Below are positions 935 through 10,789 of a stretch of DNA of 34,606 nt, piece by piece. The position numbers and the translations under genes are program-made. The DNA comes from Chloroflexota bacterium (GTDB lineage Bacteria > Chloroflexota > Anaerolineae > Promineifilales > Promineifilaceae). The DNA lies in contig JAKEFB010000234.1 in assembly GCA_022616275.1 (NCBI GenBank), forward strand, positions 1 through 34,606. The letters run 5' to 3'. The notes below the pieces were generated by a model. It did no database searches, was not told the DNA's origin, and saw nothing but the letters and a program-made list of their open reading frames with translations. Positions within the stretch are counted from its first letter, which is position 1; every line of letters begins with the position of its first letter.

Positions 935-2032
935 TTACTCCAAGATACACTGCCACAAACCGTTATTGGTCGCAGCCCAAATCACATTAGTGTCATATGG
1001 GTCGGGCGCTAATCGTTTCACTGATACGCCTATACCACACTGACCTAGCGGAGACCAATTAAATCCTGTGTCATAACTTACAAATACGCCGTCACTCGCA
1101 CCGAGGTAAACTGTAGAAGAAATATGCGGATCAAAAAGAAGGAAATTAGCATCTACCCCCTCCCATAACGCTTGCCAGTTTTCAGCCCGATCTTCACTGA
1201 CGTACACACCTAATGAGGTCGCTGCATAAACTCTTTGGGGCAGATCAGGATGCAGCACGACGTGAATATCGTGCGCCCCAGTTGAGCCTGTAGGTAGGCC
1301 GTTATTGGCAGCAAACCAGGAATTGCCAGCATCCGTACTTTTTTGGACACCGGCTAATTTGGTGCCCGCGTAAACAACAGTTGGCGAAATAGGATCAAAG
1401 GCAAAGGTTAAGGCATTGGTGAACATGGGAGATACGAGGTACCAATTCTGCCCCCCATTTACCGTCTTGAAAATCTCACCGCCAACAGGCTCCCAGTTAC
1501 CCGACCCTGCCAGCATGATCGTTGGGGTAAGTGGATGGAGAGCAACGCTGTATAACGTTGGAGATAGAGAAGACCAGCCGGGTATCGGCTCCCAAGAATC
1601 TCCGCCATTTTGCGTCCAATACATGCCGTATGACGACCACGTGGCGAGATACATCGTCGTATGGGTTATTGGGTGAACATCTATATCATAGATTCGGCTA
1701 TAAATTTGCTGTTGTGTCCAAGTAGCGCCATCATCGTAGGTTTCAAAAAGGCCAACTAGAAAAATGCTTGCATAGGCATGTCCAGGCAGGTCGGGGTCCA
1801 GGTACAGATCAGTTGCGCTTTCACCGGCGAAGCCCAAAGGAACCCAGGTAGCGTTAGGTGGTTGCCTAATAATAAAAGGAAGATAACTGAGCGTGTTTGA
1901 TTTTCTGCTAAGTCGTTGGATACTGTCAGCCGACAAAGCGGATTGCTGTTGGAAGAAAAGGAAAAACGCAATGGCAGCGAGCAGGACTAATAGTAGGTAA
2001 ATCAGAGTGCTACGATCAGGATGCTTACCCAC
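935..2032 (-). CDS. Membrane-anchored or secreted BNR/Asp-box beta-propeller protein
   Basis: This 365-residue protein has an N-terminal membrane segment (about residues 9-27, LIYLLLVLLAAIAFFLFF) after a short basic head, so it is exported or anchored outside. The rest consists of repeated Asp-box blades of the sortilin/BNR type: YDDGATW, QNGGDSW, VNGGQNW, TDAGNSW, EDRAENW and YDTGFNW, each followed by a strand such as VYAGT or VYLGA. This is typical of six- or seven-blade propellers of the VPS10/sialidase fold, here probably a binding or scaffold protein. No catalytic residues of a sialidase can be assigned. The start is GTG (2030-2032), with GAGGGTG upstream as a moderate ribosome binding site. 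It is on the same strand as the exported protein at 1-778, 156 nt upstream of it in the direction of transcription. Confidence 0.8.
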   Translation of the reverse strand: MGKHPDRSTLIYLLLVLLAAIAFFLFFQQQSALSADSIQRLSRKSNTLSYLPFIIRQPPNATWVPLGFAGESATDLYLDPDLPGHAYASIFLVGLFETYDDGATWTQQQIYSRIYDIDVHPITHTTMYLATWSSYGMYWTQNGGDSWEPIPGWSSLSPTLYSVALHPLTPTIMLAGSGNWEPVGGEIFKTVNGGQNWYLVSPMFTNALTFAFDPISPTVVYAGTKLAGVQKSTDAGNSWFAANNGLPTGSTGAHDIHVVLHPDLPQRVYAATSLGVYVSEDRAENWQALWEGVDANFLLFDPHISSTVYLGASDGVFVSYDTGFNWSPLGQCGIGVSVKRLAPDPYDTNVIWAATNNGLWQCILE

Positions 2033-6529: not shown

Positions 6530-7303
6530 ATGGCAAACACGCTTGATCAATTCCGGCTCGACGGCCGGGTGGCTGTTATCACCGGTGGCAACCGGGGTCT
6601 GGGCCAGGCGCTGGCCGAGGCGCTGGCCGGGGCCGGCGCTTCCATCGCCATCCTCAGCCGCCAGCCTGGCGCGGCGGCCGTGGCCGCCGCCCAACTGCAG
6701 GCCAGCGCCGGCGTACCGTGCCGGGGCTACACCTGCGACGTCACTGCGCCGGAACAGGTAGAGGCCAGGGTGGCCCAGATTGCGGCCGACCTGGGCGGCG
6801 TTGACATCCTGGTCAATAACGCCGGCATCAACATTCGCGGCCCCATTGAACAGTTAACGCCGGCCGATTTCCAGCAGGTGATGGCGACCAACGTGACCGG
6901 CGTCTGGCTGATGTGCCGTGCGGCGGCCGCCCATTTGCAGGCCAGCCGGCATGGACGAGTGATCAACATCGGCTCGATGCTTTCCCTGGTCGGCCTGCCC
7001 AACCGCACGGCTTACGCCAGTAGCAAAGGAGCTATCCTGCAGCTCACCCGGGCCCTGGCGCTGGAGTGGGCGCCCCATCGGGTCACCGTCAACGCCATCC
7101 TGCCTGGTCCGTTCCGGACCGAGATGAACGAGCAGTTATTGAACGACCCTGCTACCTACCAGGCTTTCATCAGCCGGATTCCCCTGGGACGCTGGGGCGA
7201 GCCGGAAGAACTGGCCGGCGCCATCCTCTTTTTGGCCAGCGATGCTGCCAGTTTTATGACGGGGACCGCGCTGGTTATAGACGGTGGCTGGACCGCCCGC
7301 TAA
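6530..7303 (+). CDS. Short-chain dehydrogenase/reductase, classical FabG-like type
   Basis: This 257-residue protein has the full classical SDR signature. The nucleotide-binding TGGNRGLG is at 18-25, NNAG at 96-99, and the catalytic Ser149, Tyr162 and Lys166 (YASSK) are present. The C-terminal ending ALVIDGGWTAR is that of FabG and gluconate/2-dehydro-3-deoxygluconate 5-dehydrogenases. It therefore oxidises or reduces a sugar-like or acyl substrate with NAD(P)(H) in the cytoplasm. The exact substrate cannot be read from the sequence. The start follows the GGGAGGG site buried in the hairpin at 6473-6529. It faces the TrpB-like gene tail to tail, with 11 nt between the two stops and no room for a terminator. 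Confidence 0.92.
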   Translation: MANTLDQFRLDGRVAVITGGNRGLGQALAEALAGAGASIAILSRQPGAAAVAAAQLQASAGVPCRGYTCDVTAPEQVEARVAQIAADLGGVDILVNNAGINIRGPIEQLTPADFQQVMATNVTGVWLMCRAAAAHLQASRHGRVINIGSMLSLVGLPNRTAYASSKGAILQLTRALALEWAPHRVTVNAILPGPFRTEMNEQLLNDPATYQAFISRIPLGRWGEPEELAGAILFLASDAASFMTGTALVIDGGWTAR

Positions 7304-7314
7304 CCCGTCCGTCA

Positions 7315-8682
7315 TCAAAACGCAACAGCGGGTAGCTGGGTCATTGCTGCTTCAATCGCCTCGGCCGGGTACGCGTAATCTTCCAGGGCGCCACGTTGGA
7401 AGGCGTCGTAGGCGGCCATGTCGAAGTGGCCGTGGCCGGAGAGGTTAAAGGCAATCACCCGCCGCTCGCCGCTCTCTTTACAGCGCAGGGCTTCGTCTAT
7501 GACGACCCGGATGGCGTGGGCCGATTCCGGCGCGGGCACGATGCCCTCGGCCCTGGCAAAGGTGGTCGCCGCTTCGAAAGTGGCCAGTTGCGGCACGGCG
7601 CGGGCTTCGATGGTCCCGTGTTCGACCAGGGCGCTGACGCTGGGGGCCATGCCGTGGTAGCGCAACCCGCCGGCGTGGATGCCGGGCGGGACGAAGGTGT
7701 GGCCCAGGGTATACATTTTGACAATCGGGGCTGTGCCGGCCGTGTCGCCATAATCAAAGGCGTAGGAACCCCTGGTCAGCGAAGGGCAGGAAGCCGGCTC
7801 GACGGCCACAATGCGGGTCGTGGCTCCCTGGGTCAGGTTCCGATGCACGAACGGGTAGGCTAGGCCGGCAAAGTTGGAGCCGCCACCGACGCAGCCGACG
7901 ACCAGGTCGGGATAGTCGCCAGCCGCTTCCAGTTGTTGCAAGGCCTCCAGCCCAATGACGGTCTGGTGCATCAGGACGTGGTTGAGAACGGAGCCAAGGC
8001 TGTATTTCTTGCGGCCGCCGGAGGTAGCGGCCGCTTCCACGGCCTCGGAGATGGCGATGCCCAGGGAGCCGGGGTTGTCAGGCTCTTCTTCCAGCAGACG
8101 GCGGCCGTAATGGGTGCGATCGGTCGGACTGGCGAAGACCTGCGCTCCGTACGTTTGCATCAGCACCCGGCGATAAGGCTTCTGCTCGTAGGAGATCTTG
8201 ACCATGTACACTTCCAGGTCGAGGTCAAAGAAGCTGCAGGCCATGGCCAGCGCCGAACCCCACTGGCCGGCTCCGGTTTCCGTCGTCAGCGCCTTTGTTC
8301 CTTCCTGCTTGTTGAAGAATGCCTGGGCTACGGCCGTGTTGGGCTTGTGCGAGCCGACCGGACTGACTCCTTCGTACTTGTAGTAGATACGGGCCGGCGT
8401 GTCCAGCGCCTTCTCCAGGCGGCGGGCGCGGAAAAGAGGCGTCGGCCGCCACAGCTTGTAGATCTCCCGCACCGGTTCGGGAATCTCGACCCAGCGCTCG
8501 GGACTCATTTCCTGCATGATCAGGCTCATGGGAAAGAGAACGCTGAGAAAGTCCGGCGTCACCGGCTCCCTGGTTGCCGGGTGCAAGACCGGCGCCGGCG
8601 GCACAGGCATGTCGGCGTTGATGTTGTACCAGGCCTTCGGCAACTCGCTTTCCGGCAAAACGTATTTATACGGTTCGTTCAT
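7315..8682 (-). CDS. Tryptophan synthase beta chain, type 2 (TrpB2-like), PLP-dependent
   Basis: This 455-residue protein joins indole and L-serine to form tryptophan if it acts like studied TrpB2 enzymes. The PLP lysine lies in GSHKPNTA (about residue 113), the catalytic-type Glu in [10 protein letters not shown], and the phosphate loop is GGGSN. The N-terminal extension before RPTPL and the total length fit the TrpB2 class, which often lacks a TrpA partner. No trpA is visible here. The ATG at 8682 is chosen over a TTG at 8688 because GGAGG (8692-8696) sits 9 nt from the ATG but only 3 nt from the TTG. Its role may be indole salvage or a related beta-replacement reaction. Confidence 0.9.
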
Positions 8683-8851
8683 AGCCAATAACCTCCATCA
8701 ATCTCCACTGTCTGATCGCCAATCTCTAAAAACAAGAAAACAGGCTTTGGTGATAGATGTAATTATGGCTACTTCAAGAAGTCATGCAAACGCGCGGAAG
8801 AGCCGCCCCACGACTCGAAGATTCATTTTGAGCGCCTTGCCAGCCTGCTAC

Positions 8852-9148
8852 CTAGCCTCCGGCCATGGCGCCGACAACCCGAAAAGGCTCGGCGCCTAGC
8901 GCCACTGCCTCGGGCAGAGGGGCATCCGGCGGCTGGTGCGACAAATCCTCTCCACAGGCGAAGAACCGGATGAACGGCCGGCGCTGTTGCGTGGCGTGGT
9001 CGCGAATCGTCCCGCGCAGCACCGGATACTGTGCCTCCAGGGCGTCCAGAACCGAGCGCTGCGTAACCGGACCCTCAACCTGAAGCGTGACCTCTTTGCC
9101 AACGTGGGCCAATGTCCCCAGATGGTACGGGAGAACGATGCGTATCAT
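8852..9148 (-). CDS. Ubiquitin-like MoaD/ThiS family protein with C-terminal Gly-Gly
   Basis: This 98-residue protein begins [17 protein letters not shown] and ends VVGAMAGG. A beta-grasp pattern (IRIVLP, then [32 protein letters not shown]) is followed by the exposed terminal Gly-Gly. In MoaD, ThiS and archaeal SAMPs that end is adenylated by an E1-like enzyme and then thiocarboxylated or conjugated. Its ATG overlaps the stop of the upstream propeller gene as ATGA, so the two are translationally coupled. The longer frame starting further upstream is discarded because it only reads through the neighbour's end. No E1-like, MoaE or ThiG gene is nearby. It could serve as a sulfur carrier or a protein modifier. 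Confidence 0.85.
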
Positions 9149-10260
9149 GTCACTGTTTGCACCTCGACAGACAACACGGCCGGCAAATCTCGGACGATGG
9201 GCGCCCAACTGTCGCCGGAATCGGCCGAGGCGTACACCTGCCCGCCGGTGGTGCCGAAGTATACGCCGCAAGGATCGAGCGAGTCAACGGCCATGGCATC
9301 GCGTAAGACGTTGACGTAGCAGTCGCTTTGCGGCAGGCCTTTGGTGAGCGCCTCCCACTCGTTTCCGCCCGTCCGGCTGCGGTAGACGCGCAGCTTGCCA
9401 TCGGGCGGATAATGCTCCGAGTCGCTCTTGATCGGGACGACGTAGATGGTGTCCGGCTCGTGGGCGTGAACGGCGATTGGAAATCCGAAGTCGCTCGGCA
9501 AGTTGCCGCTGACCTCGTGCCACGACTCGCCGCCATCGTCGCTACGCATGACGTCCCAGTGCTTCTGCATGAACAAGACGTTCGGCCGCCCCGGGTGCAT
9601 GGCAATGCGGTGAACACAATGGCCGACCTCGGCATCCGGGTCCGGCAGCTCATACGGAGATTTCAGGCCGTTGTTCACCGGCCGCCACGTCTGGCCACCG
9701 TCGTCGGTGCGGAACGCGCCCGCGGCCGAGATAGCGATGAAGATCCGGTCGGGATCGCCCGGGTCCAGAATGATCGTGTGCAGGCACATCCCACCGGCGC
9801 CCGGTTGCCAGAGTTGTCCTTTGGCCGTGCGCAGGCCGGGGAGTTCCTGCCACGTCTGCCCGCCGTCGCTTGTGCGGAACAAGGCGGCGTCTTCCACCCC
9901 GGCGTAGACCGTGTCCGGATCGGTCAGCGACGGTTCGAGGTGCCAGACACGCTTGAACTCCCAGGGGTGTTGCGTACCGTCGTACCACTGGTGGGTACCG
10001 GGGACGCCGTCATACACGAACTCGTTCCCCACGGGCGCCCAGGTCTCGCCGCCGTCGTTGGAGCGATGGATCACCTGTCCGAACCAGTCGCTGGACTGCG
10101 ACGCATACAGCCGATTCGGGTCAACCGGTGATCCCTTGAGGTGGTAAATCTCCCAGCCGGCAAAGTGGGGGCTGCTGACGTCCCACCGTTCGCGCTTGGC
10201 GTCTGAAGTAAGAATAAACGCACCCTTGCGGGTGCCGACCAAAACTCGAACTCCGCTCAT
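9145..10260 (-). CDS. Cytoplasmic BNR/Asp-box propeller protein (sialidase-like fold), coupled to a MoaD-like gene
   Basis: This 371-residue protein lacks any signal peptide ([17 protein letters not shown]), unlike the exported propeller at 935-2032. Six Asp-box blades are visible: [40 protein letters not shown] and SADSGDSW. Between them are [13 protein letters not shown] and [14 protein letters not shown] strands. Such proteins are usually annotated as exo-alpha-sialidase or glycosyl hydrolase, but I see no basis for sialidase activity in the cytoplasm. An AGGAGA site lies about 6 nt before the ATG. The last codons overlap the ATG of the Gly-Gly protein, so the pair is one operon. A functional link, for example as target or scaffold of the ubiquitin-like partner, is an inference. 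Confidence 0.88.
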
Positions 10261-10312: not shown

Positions 10313-10789
10313 TTATGGTTTCAGGCTGCACAAGGCCTGTCGAATCTCACCCAGGTGATAGGCAGTGTGGACGATGACTGCTATGGCCCCACCGATGTGC
10401 TGCTCACCCGGCCACTCGACCGTATCGTTGATAAGTTGCTTGATGCGGTTATAGCTTTCACGCAGTTCCGTCTTGATCGCCTCCCATTCTTCGGGGGTGA
10501 CGGCCGCGGTCTCTCGCCAGATCTTGCCCCAGTCCTGCCGCTCGTTCTGTTGCGTGCGCACGCTGCGCTCTGTCACGTCCAGATAAAAGGCCACGTGCTT
10601 CACCTGCGCGGCCAGCGTGGCGCACTTGCCGCCCACCGGCACCGATGCTTCCGCAGCGGAAATCGTGGCCAGCGTCTCGAACATAGACGTGCCCCCGTCG
10701 AGGAAGTAACCCTGCACGTTGTCGAATGTCTCATCAAGCAACGTGTAGAGCGCGTTCGTGAAATGCTCCGCTTGAATTTGAGTGGACAT
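10313..10789 (-). CDS. DinB-like four-helix metal-binding protein
   Basis: This 158-residue protein has the DinB/YfiT fold signature. It is a helical bundle with histidines in HVAFYLD in the middle and HTAYHLGEIRQAL at the C-terminus, which bind a divalent metal in this superfamily. Many members are thiol-dependent transferases or of unknown role. No specific substrate can be named. The start is an ATG with AGGAGA 4 nt upstream. It is the gene nearest upstream of the propeller/ubiquitin-like pair on the same strand, about 50 nt away, and may be co-transcribed with it. A sigma-70-like promoter (10853-10881, minus) precedes it. Confidence 0.82.
   Translation of the reverse strand: MSTQIQAEHFTNALYTLLDETFDNVQGYFLDGGTSMFETLATISAAEASVPVGGKCATLAAQVKHVAFYLDVTERSVRTQQNERQDWGKIWRETAAVTPEEWEAIKTELRESYNRIKQLINDTVEWPGEQHIGGAIAVIVHTAYHLGEIRQALCSLKP

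Follow-up and report, generated by a model that had tools for sequence, protein, structure and literature searches.

A ubiquitin-like protein with a conserved Gly-Gly end is paired with a cytoplasmic Asp-box propeller in many bacterial groups

A ubiquitin-like protein (Ubl) with a conserved C-terminal Gly-Gly was found to be tied, genetically and evolutionarily, to a cytoplasmic Asp-box propeller, and the view that the two form a dedicated two-protein module is well supported. It is close to certain that propeller and Ubl work together. The window (the whole stretch of DNA that was analysed, 34,606 nucleotides) is contig C149 of a Chloroflexota genome (G000; 8.5 Mb in 309 contigs, 98% complete, 5.5% contamination). 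An earlier sequence-only reading of this DNA had reported both open reading frames, and they were found where it had placed them, on the minus strand. The propeller gene (9145..10260, minus strand) is translated into 371 amino acids. The Ubl gene (8852..9148, minus strand) is translated into 98 amino acids ending in Ala-Gly-Gly (...AMAGG; codons of Gly97-Gly98 at 8855..8860, minus strand), a putative CysO/SAMP1-like ubiquitin-fold carrier. The Ubl ATG lies inside the propeller stop codon, as had been noted: in the ATGA at 9145..9148 (minus strand), the stop codon of the propeller and the start codon of the Ubl share bases 9148-9145. By inspection, the propeller has no hydrophobic N-terminal signal, in agreement with its first description as signal-less. 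Where such genes are annotated, the propeller is called a sialidase and the Ubl a MoaD/ThiS family protein.

Close propellers were defined as those at least 72% identical to the window propeller (n = 127). They comprise 47 from Chloroflexota and, from a scan of GTDB contigs, the best 80 of 567 confirmed relatives (77-88% identical), and so the nearest ones instead of a random draw. Adjacency was scored as a match, within 1 kb of the propeller, to an HMM made from the Ubl partners already identified. The Ubl was downstream of the propeller in all 125 evaluable close loci (46/46 in Chloroflexota, 79/79 among the best 80 of 567 GTDB relatives); the other two, one from each set, run into a contig end. 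An in-frame 4-nt overlap was present at 116 of the 125 close loci with a partner (85 ATGA, 30 GTGA and 1 TTGA), which is far beyond chance. In four close loci (L072, L081, L100 and L114) the Ubl lies 530-713 bases downstream of the propeller. In L025 and L034 an NTGA overlap is present, but the frame it opens is not that of the Ubl, which was recognised 46 bases further on. Among the best 80 of 567 GTDB loci, 77 have a phylum named by the record title, and these represent at least 16 phyla. At the level of whole genomes, a close Ubl (E<=1e-10) occurred in 47 of the 301 Chloroflexota genomes, the same 47 that have a close propeller; 254 genomes had neither and none had one alone (lists compared by eye). 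In one of the genomes (G053), propeller and Ubl are on separate contigs, each at a contig end.

Pairing was also found in more distant propellers. The propeller query matched 126 of the 301 Chloroflexota genomes (E<=1e-20), some of them weakly and through other Asp-box proteins. The strong matches correspond to 122 Chloroflexota loci (best match per locus, full-length except the partial L207 and L214), 47 close and 75 distant (33-46% identity in alignments, up to 50% in the search). Split, partial and weak matches (best segment at roughly E 1e-51 or poorer, e.g. in G051, G113, G146, G173, G226 and G277) were left out. An adjacent same-strand Ubl was present in 62 of the 74 evaluable distant Chloroflexota loci (34 downstream, 28 upstream), while 12 propellers had no Ubl within 1 kb. 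L045, counted as unpaired, harbours two propeller genes in tandem, and a Ubl follows the second. The pairing thus reaches beyond close relatives, across at least 16 named phyla and in both gene orders, which settles in its favour the doubt whether adjacency was confined to near kin. By contrast, the fixed stoichiometry that the sequence-only reading had drawn from the coupled start is not established: the 4-nt overlap occurs at only 7 of 66 distant loci, where the genes are mostly merely adjacent, and the order is reversed at 28 of the 74 evaluable Chloroflexota loci.

Plasmid copies showed both states. The Ubl is upstream of the propeller in three Betaproteobacteria (L138, L140 and L142; two annotated as MoaD/ThiS family) and downstream in the Nonomuraea gerenzanensis plasmid (L141), and no Ubl was found with the plasmid copies of three Rhodobacterales and one Streptomyces (L135-L137 and L139). 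In a tree of 97 propellers (15 close loci plus the distant ones, L214 dropped), gene order changed at least three times and paired or unpaired status at least six times; the tree was built by a quick method, with 29 of 94 inner branches open and long branches flagged. A second, unpaired propeller of the distant branch, one of the 12 without a nearby Ubl, is present in the window's own genome (L035/L232, G000:C88:24765-25826), where a PLP-enzyme-like ORF (named by eye) is convergent to it.

Propeller and Ubl diverge together. Correlating the pairwise divergences of the two proteins gave r 0.96 for all 189 pairs and, branch by branch, 0.51 for the 124 close and 0.86 for the 65 distant pairs (p 0.001 by Mantel permutation). 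In 75 of the best 80 of 567 GTDB loci, identity between phyla was about the same as identity within phyla, both for the propeller (80.0% vs. 81.6%) and for the Ubl (67.1% vs. 66.8%). This suggests that the pair was transferred as a unit, with the caution that the GTDB set was picked for nearness to the window propeller (best 80 of 567) and that most of its records are metagenome bins, whose contigs may be mis-assigned. As judged from these sequences, the two genes probably form a module that has moved between lineages as a unit. The nearest relative belonged to the same phylum for 50 of the 75 loci (among the best 80 of 567 GTDB relatives), indicating inheritance within phyla as well.

The Ubl belongs to a known fold, of which it is a divergent member. 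The window Ubl had no match in Pfam at E 1 and was also missed by a whole-genome search with PF02597 (E<=1). The three close-branch Ubls scanned against Pfam were all missed or below cut-off, and PF02597 was above cut-off in all six distant partners scanned (ThiS-fold homology). The same genome harbours a cluster of CysM-like, JAMM, CysO-like and MoeB/rhodanese E1 genes (G000:C189, L228). The Ubl profile, made from the window protein and 74 close relatives, gave a full-length alignment, through to the Gly-Gly, with this cluster's CysO-like protein (L228:4847-5128; hhalign probability 83, E 8.8e-6), which places the window Ubl within the ThiS/MoaD/CysO fold. Alignments A1 and A2 (A2 being the Ubl profile) hold 73 and 74, respectively, of the 80 GTDB loci (best 80 of 567). 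The MoaD/ThiS-type assignment of the sequence-only reading therefore stands at the profile level, but not as a Pfam match of the window protein at E 1.

The idea that the Ubl is an ordinary MoaD (or ThiS or CysO) whose gene adjoins that of the propeller by chance is extremely improbable and largely refuted. The only MoaE match in G000 is taken as a MoaD-MoaE fusion (L229); this MoaE carries its own fused MoaD, so no further MoaD is needed, and the small protein is probably not the MoaD of a MoaE elsewhere in the genome. Together with the separate CysM-JAMM-CysO-E1 cluster and its CysO-like protein, the fusion indicates that the Ubl is not a misplaced MoaD. Family scores agree with the rejection: the moaD equivalog TIGR01682 did not match the window Ubl at E 1, and matched three of six distant partners at 18.6-21.1 bits, far below its cut-off of 66.15. 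A chance neighbour would also be hard to reconcile with the distribution of the close Ubl, which occurs in the 47 genomes that have the close propeller and in no others. Three genomes have the pair and no MoaE match at E<=1e-5 (G235, 95% complete; G195, 93%; G220, 90%). What remains in favour of an ordinary MoaD is the PF02597 score in six of six distant partners and the frequency of MoaE, which 115 of the 126 propeller-matching genomes have (by eye) vs. 246 of 301 overall; MoaE is somewhat commoner with a propeller match, and the separation from the molybdenum cofactor is thus not clean. The MoaD-MoaE fusion query also matched the flank of L184, possibly just through the partner Ubl.

The CysM-JAMM-CysO-E1 cluster makes an E1 and a JAMM peptidase available in trans. 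No MoaE or ThiG was recognised among the listed ORFs of the window (five ORFs scanned against Pfam), and contig C149 had no E1 when the whole genome was searched for ThiF (E<=0.001). The remark that no E1 is nearby is thus right for the window, but not for the whole family, as 2 of 210 loci (L034 and L206) have an E1 relative in their flanks; in G128, a ThiF-rhodanese gene lies beside the pair, convergent to it. JAMM or CysM relatives were found in the flanks of 0/210 loci. A ThiF match (E<=1e-20) was present in 45 of the 47 close-clade genomes (by eye) and in 266 of all 301. JAMM was present in 25/25 Chloroflexota genomes with tailed partners and in 25/26 carriers with untailed ones; since it was common without the pair as well (50/51 carriers vs. 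42/50 genomes without a propeller match), finding it is not very informative. Neither E1 nor JAMM was found at the thresholds used in one carrier genome (G241, 94% complete). The association of E1, JAMM and MoaE with the pair across genomes is not strong enough to decide between readings. That one E1 can serve several carriers is known from mycobacteria, where MoeZR is reported to sulfurate MoaD1, MoaD2 and CysO (PMC3227635). G000 also harbours a separate Ubl cluster (L231, G000:C224:10500-15000) with a ThiF-family E1, a YukD-like Ubl, a UQ_con E2-like protein and a JAB match.

Of 191 partners, 189 have the Gly-Gly; the other two are L118, cut by a contig end, and L141, which ends in PALA. In the close clade all four Gly codons are in use at both Gly-Gly positions, showing that it is the residues that are conserved and not the bases. 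Mean identity among distant partners was 37%, and in an alignment of 14 of them, two of the five invariant columns were Gly-Gly. Residues beyond Gly-Gly were found in 30 of the 189 partners (9 close, 21 distant); the conserved Gly-Gly end of the first description is confirmed, but it is not always bare. In L160 (1619-2488, minus strand), the partner Ubl runs past Gly-Gly into a DUF1989 domain within one open frame. Upstream of the pair in L179 (4925-6199, minus strand), the end of another Ubl (PAISGG) continues in frame into a CoA-transferase family III domain.

Tails of this kind would be easily accommodated if the propeller were an enzyme and the Ubl its small, non-covalently bound subunit or its folding partner, with a Gly-Gly that is structural or used in docking and not activated. 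The DUF1989 fusion and the partner without Gly-Gly would pose no difficulty either, the in-frame overlap at 116 of 125 close loci would fit co-translational assembly, and an E1 lies beside the pair at just 2 of 210 loci. We nevertheless consider a non-covalent subunit unlikely, given that Gly-Gly makes up two of the only five invariant columns at 37% mean identity. JAMM in all 25 of the Chloroflexota genomes with tailed partners also argues against it, though JAMM is common anyway.

The propeller has five canonical Asp boxes (at residues 67, 130, 185, 240 and 345) and a degenerate one (at 295), so that the six boxes first counted hold if the degenerate box is included, the canonical boxes being five. 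It matches Sortilin/BNR Pfam profiles and is homologous over its full length (residues 4-366) to PDB 3b7f (YP_299179.1, Ralstonia eutropha; phmmer E 2.3e-66). Equivalents of H40, H161, H217, Q232, H234 and R320 are found in the alignment with 3b7f, which differs in being annotated as a glycosyl hydrolase. Another Sortilin/BNR-type protein is encoded in the window (935-2032, minus strand); it has an N-terminal hydrophobic stretch by eye, is probably secreted and lies outside the paired family.

Residue conservation was counted over a subset of the propellers, 109 close (from the 47 Chloroflexota and best 80 of 567 GTDB loci) and 28 distant. The residues kept in at least 93% of them outside the Asp boxes include His161 (9778..9780; 96% of distant, 99% of close), His217 (9610..9612; 100% of both), Gln232 and His234 (in Gln232-Lys233-His234, 9559..9567; each 96% of distant, 100% of close), Arg320 (9301..9303; 100% of both), W106, W151 and F258-G259-F260 (all coordinates on the minus strand). 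Lys233 is conserved in close propellers only. His161, His217 and Arg320 each lie 23-25 residues before the next Asp box. From this spacing and from general propeller topology, these three should be on the presumed innermost strands, and Gln232 and His234 in a presumed top-face loop. The conserved His161, His217, Gln232, His234 and Arg320 suggest a putative pocket of a non-sialidase type.

GH33 sialidases share the Asp-box propeller with this family and are characterised by a FRIP-type motif and a catalytic set of an Arg triad, Tyr/Glu and Asp. In the window propeller, no RIP or [YF]RI[PT] motif was present. Over the 109 close and 28 distant propellers, no Arg triad was conserved outside the Asp boxes, where only R320 was invariant, and no Glu was conserved family-wide. 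The sialidase reading was consequently rejected, and the earlier remark that the name is unsuited to this protein was borne out. A cytoplasmic, sialidase-like glycosidase with the Ubl as its regulator is very improbable: the fold and the database names ('sialidase family protein', 'exo-alpha-sialidase') speak for it, but the RIP motif, the Arg triad and an invariant Glu are all missing, and the nearest solved structure, 3b7f, was listed in 2009 as a seven-bladed Asp-box propeller with function not known (PMC2716378, in the part available). Where COG4447 appears in the available parts of two further papers (PMC6449761 and PMC6394551), it is in connection with aromatic-compound stress and with a periplasmic RND-associated protein.

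The Ubl is likely an activated carrier, as judged from the Gly-Gly constraint, the CysO-like profile and the presence of an E1. Our preferred reading, held at somewhat less than an even chance, is that an E1 acting in trans activates it and that it is a CysO/SAMP1-like carrier devoted to the propeller, its acceptor. At Gly-Gly the Ubl would be adenylated, and probably thiocarboxylated, by the MoeB/MoeZ-type E1-rhodanese of the cell, which the CysM-JAMM-CysO-E1 cluster would provide in trans; a tail beyond Gly-Gly, where present, could be trimmed by a JAMM peptidase. The two proteins would bind each other, and the activated tail of the Ubl would serve the propeller, its cognate acceptor, in which a single top-face pocket of His161, His217, Gln232, His234 and Arg320 may hold a substrate or a metal. 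Sulfur would be taken up at this pocket, as CysM does from CysO or ThiG from ThiS. The propeller as acceptor of sulfur is our best mechanistic guess, and a tentative one that we would place on the lower side of even. Reading the Ubl as a carrier is weakened by the tails after Gly-Gly in 30 of 189 partners and by L141, which lacks Gly-Gly; by E1 and JAMM genes that are common without the pair and rarely or never found in its flanks; and by the 12 of 74 evaluable distant Chloroflexota propellers that have no Ubl within 1 kb. It is possible, if doubtful, that the pair represents a ubiquitin-fold carrier system of a new class, with an Asp-box propeller (seven-bladed by homology with 3b7f) as the acceptor in place of any known kind of synthase; the propeller would have a conserved His/Gln/Arg pocket and possibly a metal that receives sulfide, and the whole would be a transferable two-gene unit over at least 16 bacterial phyla.

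The cargo may instead be the Ubl itself. In Haloferax, SAMPs are conjugated to lysines through an E1 alone, and propellers are common protein-binding scaffolds. The Ubl could thus be a protein modifier, with the propeller as its dedicated target or substrate receptor, lysine conjugation carried out by E1 alone and the Ubl removed by JAMM. With the NCBIfam SAMP1 model (NF041918, cut-off 60), two of six distant partners scored above cut-off (75.1 and 63.4 bits; L041 and L053, the former also above the cut-off of TIGR01687) and four below (38.4-56.8). These scores, the JAMM gene in 25/25 Chloroflexota genomes with tailed partners and the general role of propellers as scaffolds are consistent with a modifier. 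The same model, however, gave the CysO-like protein of the G000 cysteine cluster 59.5 bits, almost as much, and hence cannot tell a modifier from a sulfur carrier; the window Ubl itself reached just 17.9 bits, which is sub-threshold. The invariant His/Gln/Arg set would moreover resemble a small-molecule or metal site more than a protein-binding face. We therefore regard a protein modifier as rather unlikely.

To our knowledge, only a small number of ThiS/MoaD/CysO-fold carriers have been described, and every pair known so far has led to a pathway. ThiS-ThiG and MoaD-MoaE each consist of a small Gly-Gly sulfur carrier and a dedicated acceptor. The arrangement proposed here is similar, except that the proposed acceptor is a propeller, and the MoaE of G000 has its own fused MoaD. 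The mycobacterial CysO-CysM-Mec-MoeZ system, and its look-alike at G000:C189, also have a Gly-Gly Ubl of related profile, an E1-rhodanese and a carrier gene beside a partner gene; they differ in that the partner is a PLP enzyme and that E1 and JAMM are within the same cluster. The CysO-like protein of G000 differs from the window Ubl in its SPLL tail after Gly-Gly, and its gene adjoins that of the JAMM peptidase. The SAMP1/archaeal MoaD family (NF041918, TIGR01687) is the nearest profile family of the partners, but the window Ubl falls well short of its cut-off (17.9 vs. 60) and is tied to a propeller.

A catalogue of ThiS/MoaD-E1-JAB operons (Iyer, Burroughs and Aravind 2006; PMC1779556) includes, in its available part, a cysteine synthase-JAB-Ubl-E1 type, which is the type present at G000:C189; propeller, BNR, sialidase and Asp-box are not mentioned in that part. 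In the accessible portion of PMC1796856, propellers occur in surface proteins whose beta-grasp domain is a different one. A literature search, the scope of which lay largely outside subscription journals, found no paper on the propeller-Ubl pair. The near-inseparable pairing in many bacterial groups points to an undescribed two-part system. It gives the 3b7f family, which has a solved structure and a function not known, a candidate partner, and makes testable whether a Gly-Gly carrier hands over sulfur, or the Ubl itself, to a propeller.

The pair has no obligate third gene beside it. The gene upstream of the propeller in the window (10313..10789, minus strand) encodes a DinB-like protein (Pfam DinB_2 23.8 bits, just below the cut-off of 24.8). 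Counting the window's own, 6 of 111 close loci have a DinB homologue in this upstream, same-strand position, and the DinB-like gene is a loose neighbour and no obligate part. Relatives of YCII, 3-dmu-9_3-mt/PhnB, a DUF6596 sigma factor, DoxX_2, RibD_C and DinB were found in 42 of 111 close vs. 6 of 74 distant loci (counted at loci with at least 1.4 kb upstream; families named from 10 cluster representatives, 2 of them without a match), indicating that they belong to the surroundings of the close branch and not to the core. The DUF6596 sigma factor group is presumably ECF42, for which the literature search found nothing. An anti-phage defence system was rejected, as neither protein had a PADLOC match at E 0.01. 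Downstream of the pair in the window, a gene for a TrpB-like PLP enzyme (7315-8688, minus strand; PRK12391, 734.5 bits) was considered as part of an operon and rejected: a relative is beside the pair in 1 of 127 close loci, the window's own, and 0 of 83 distant ones. Relatives of the short-chain dehydrogenase encoded at 6530-7303 are present in 5 of 127 close and 3 of 83 distant loci.
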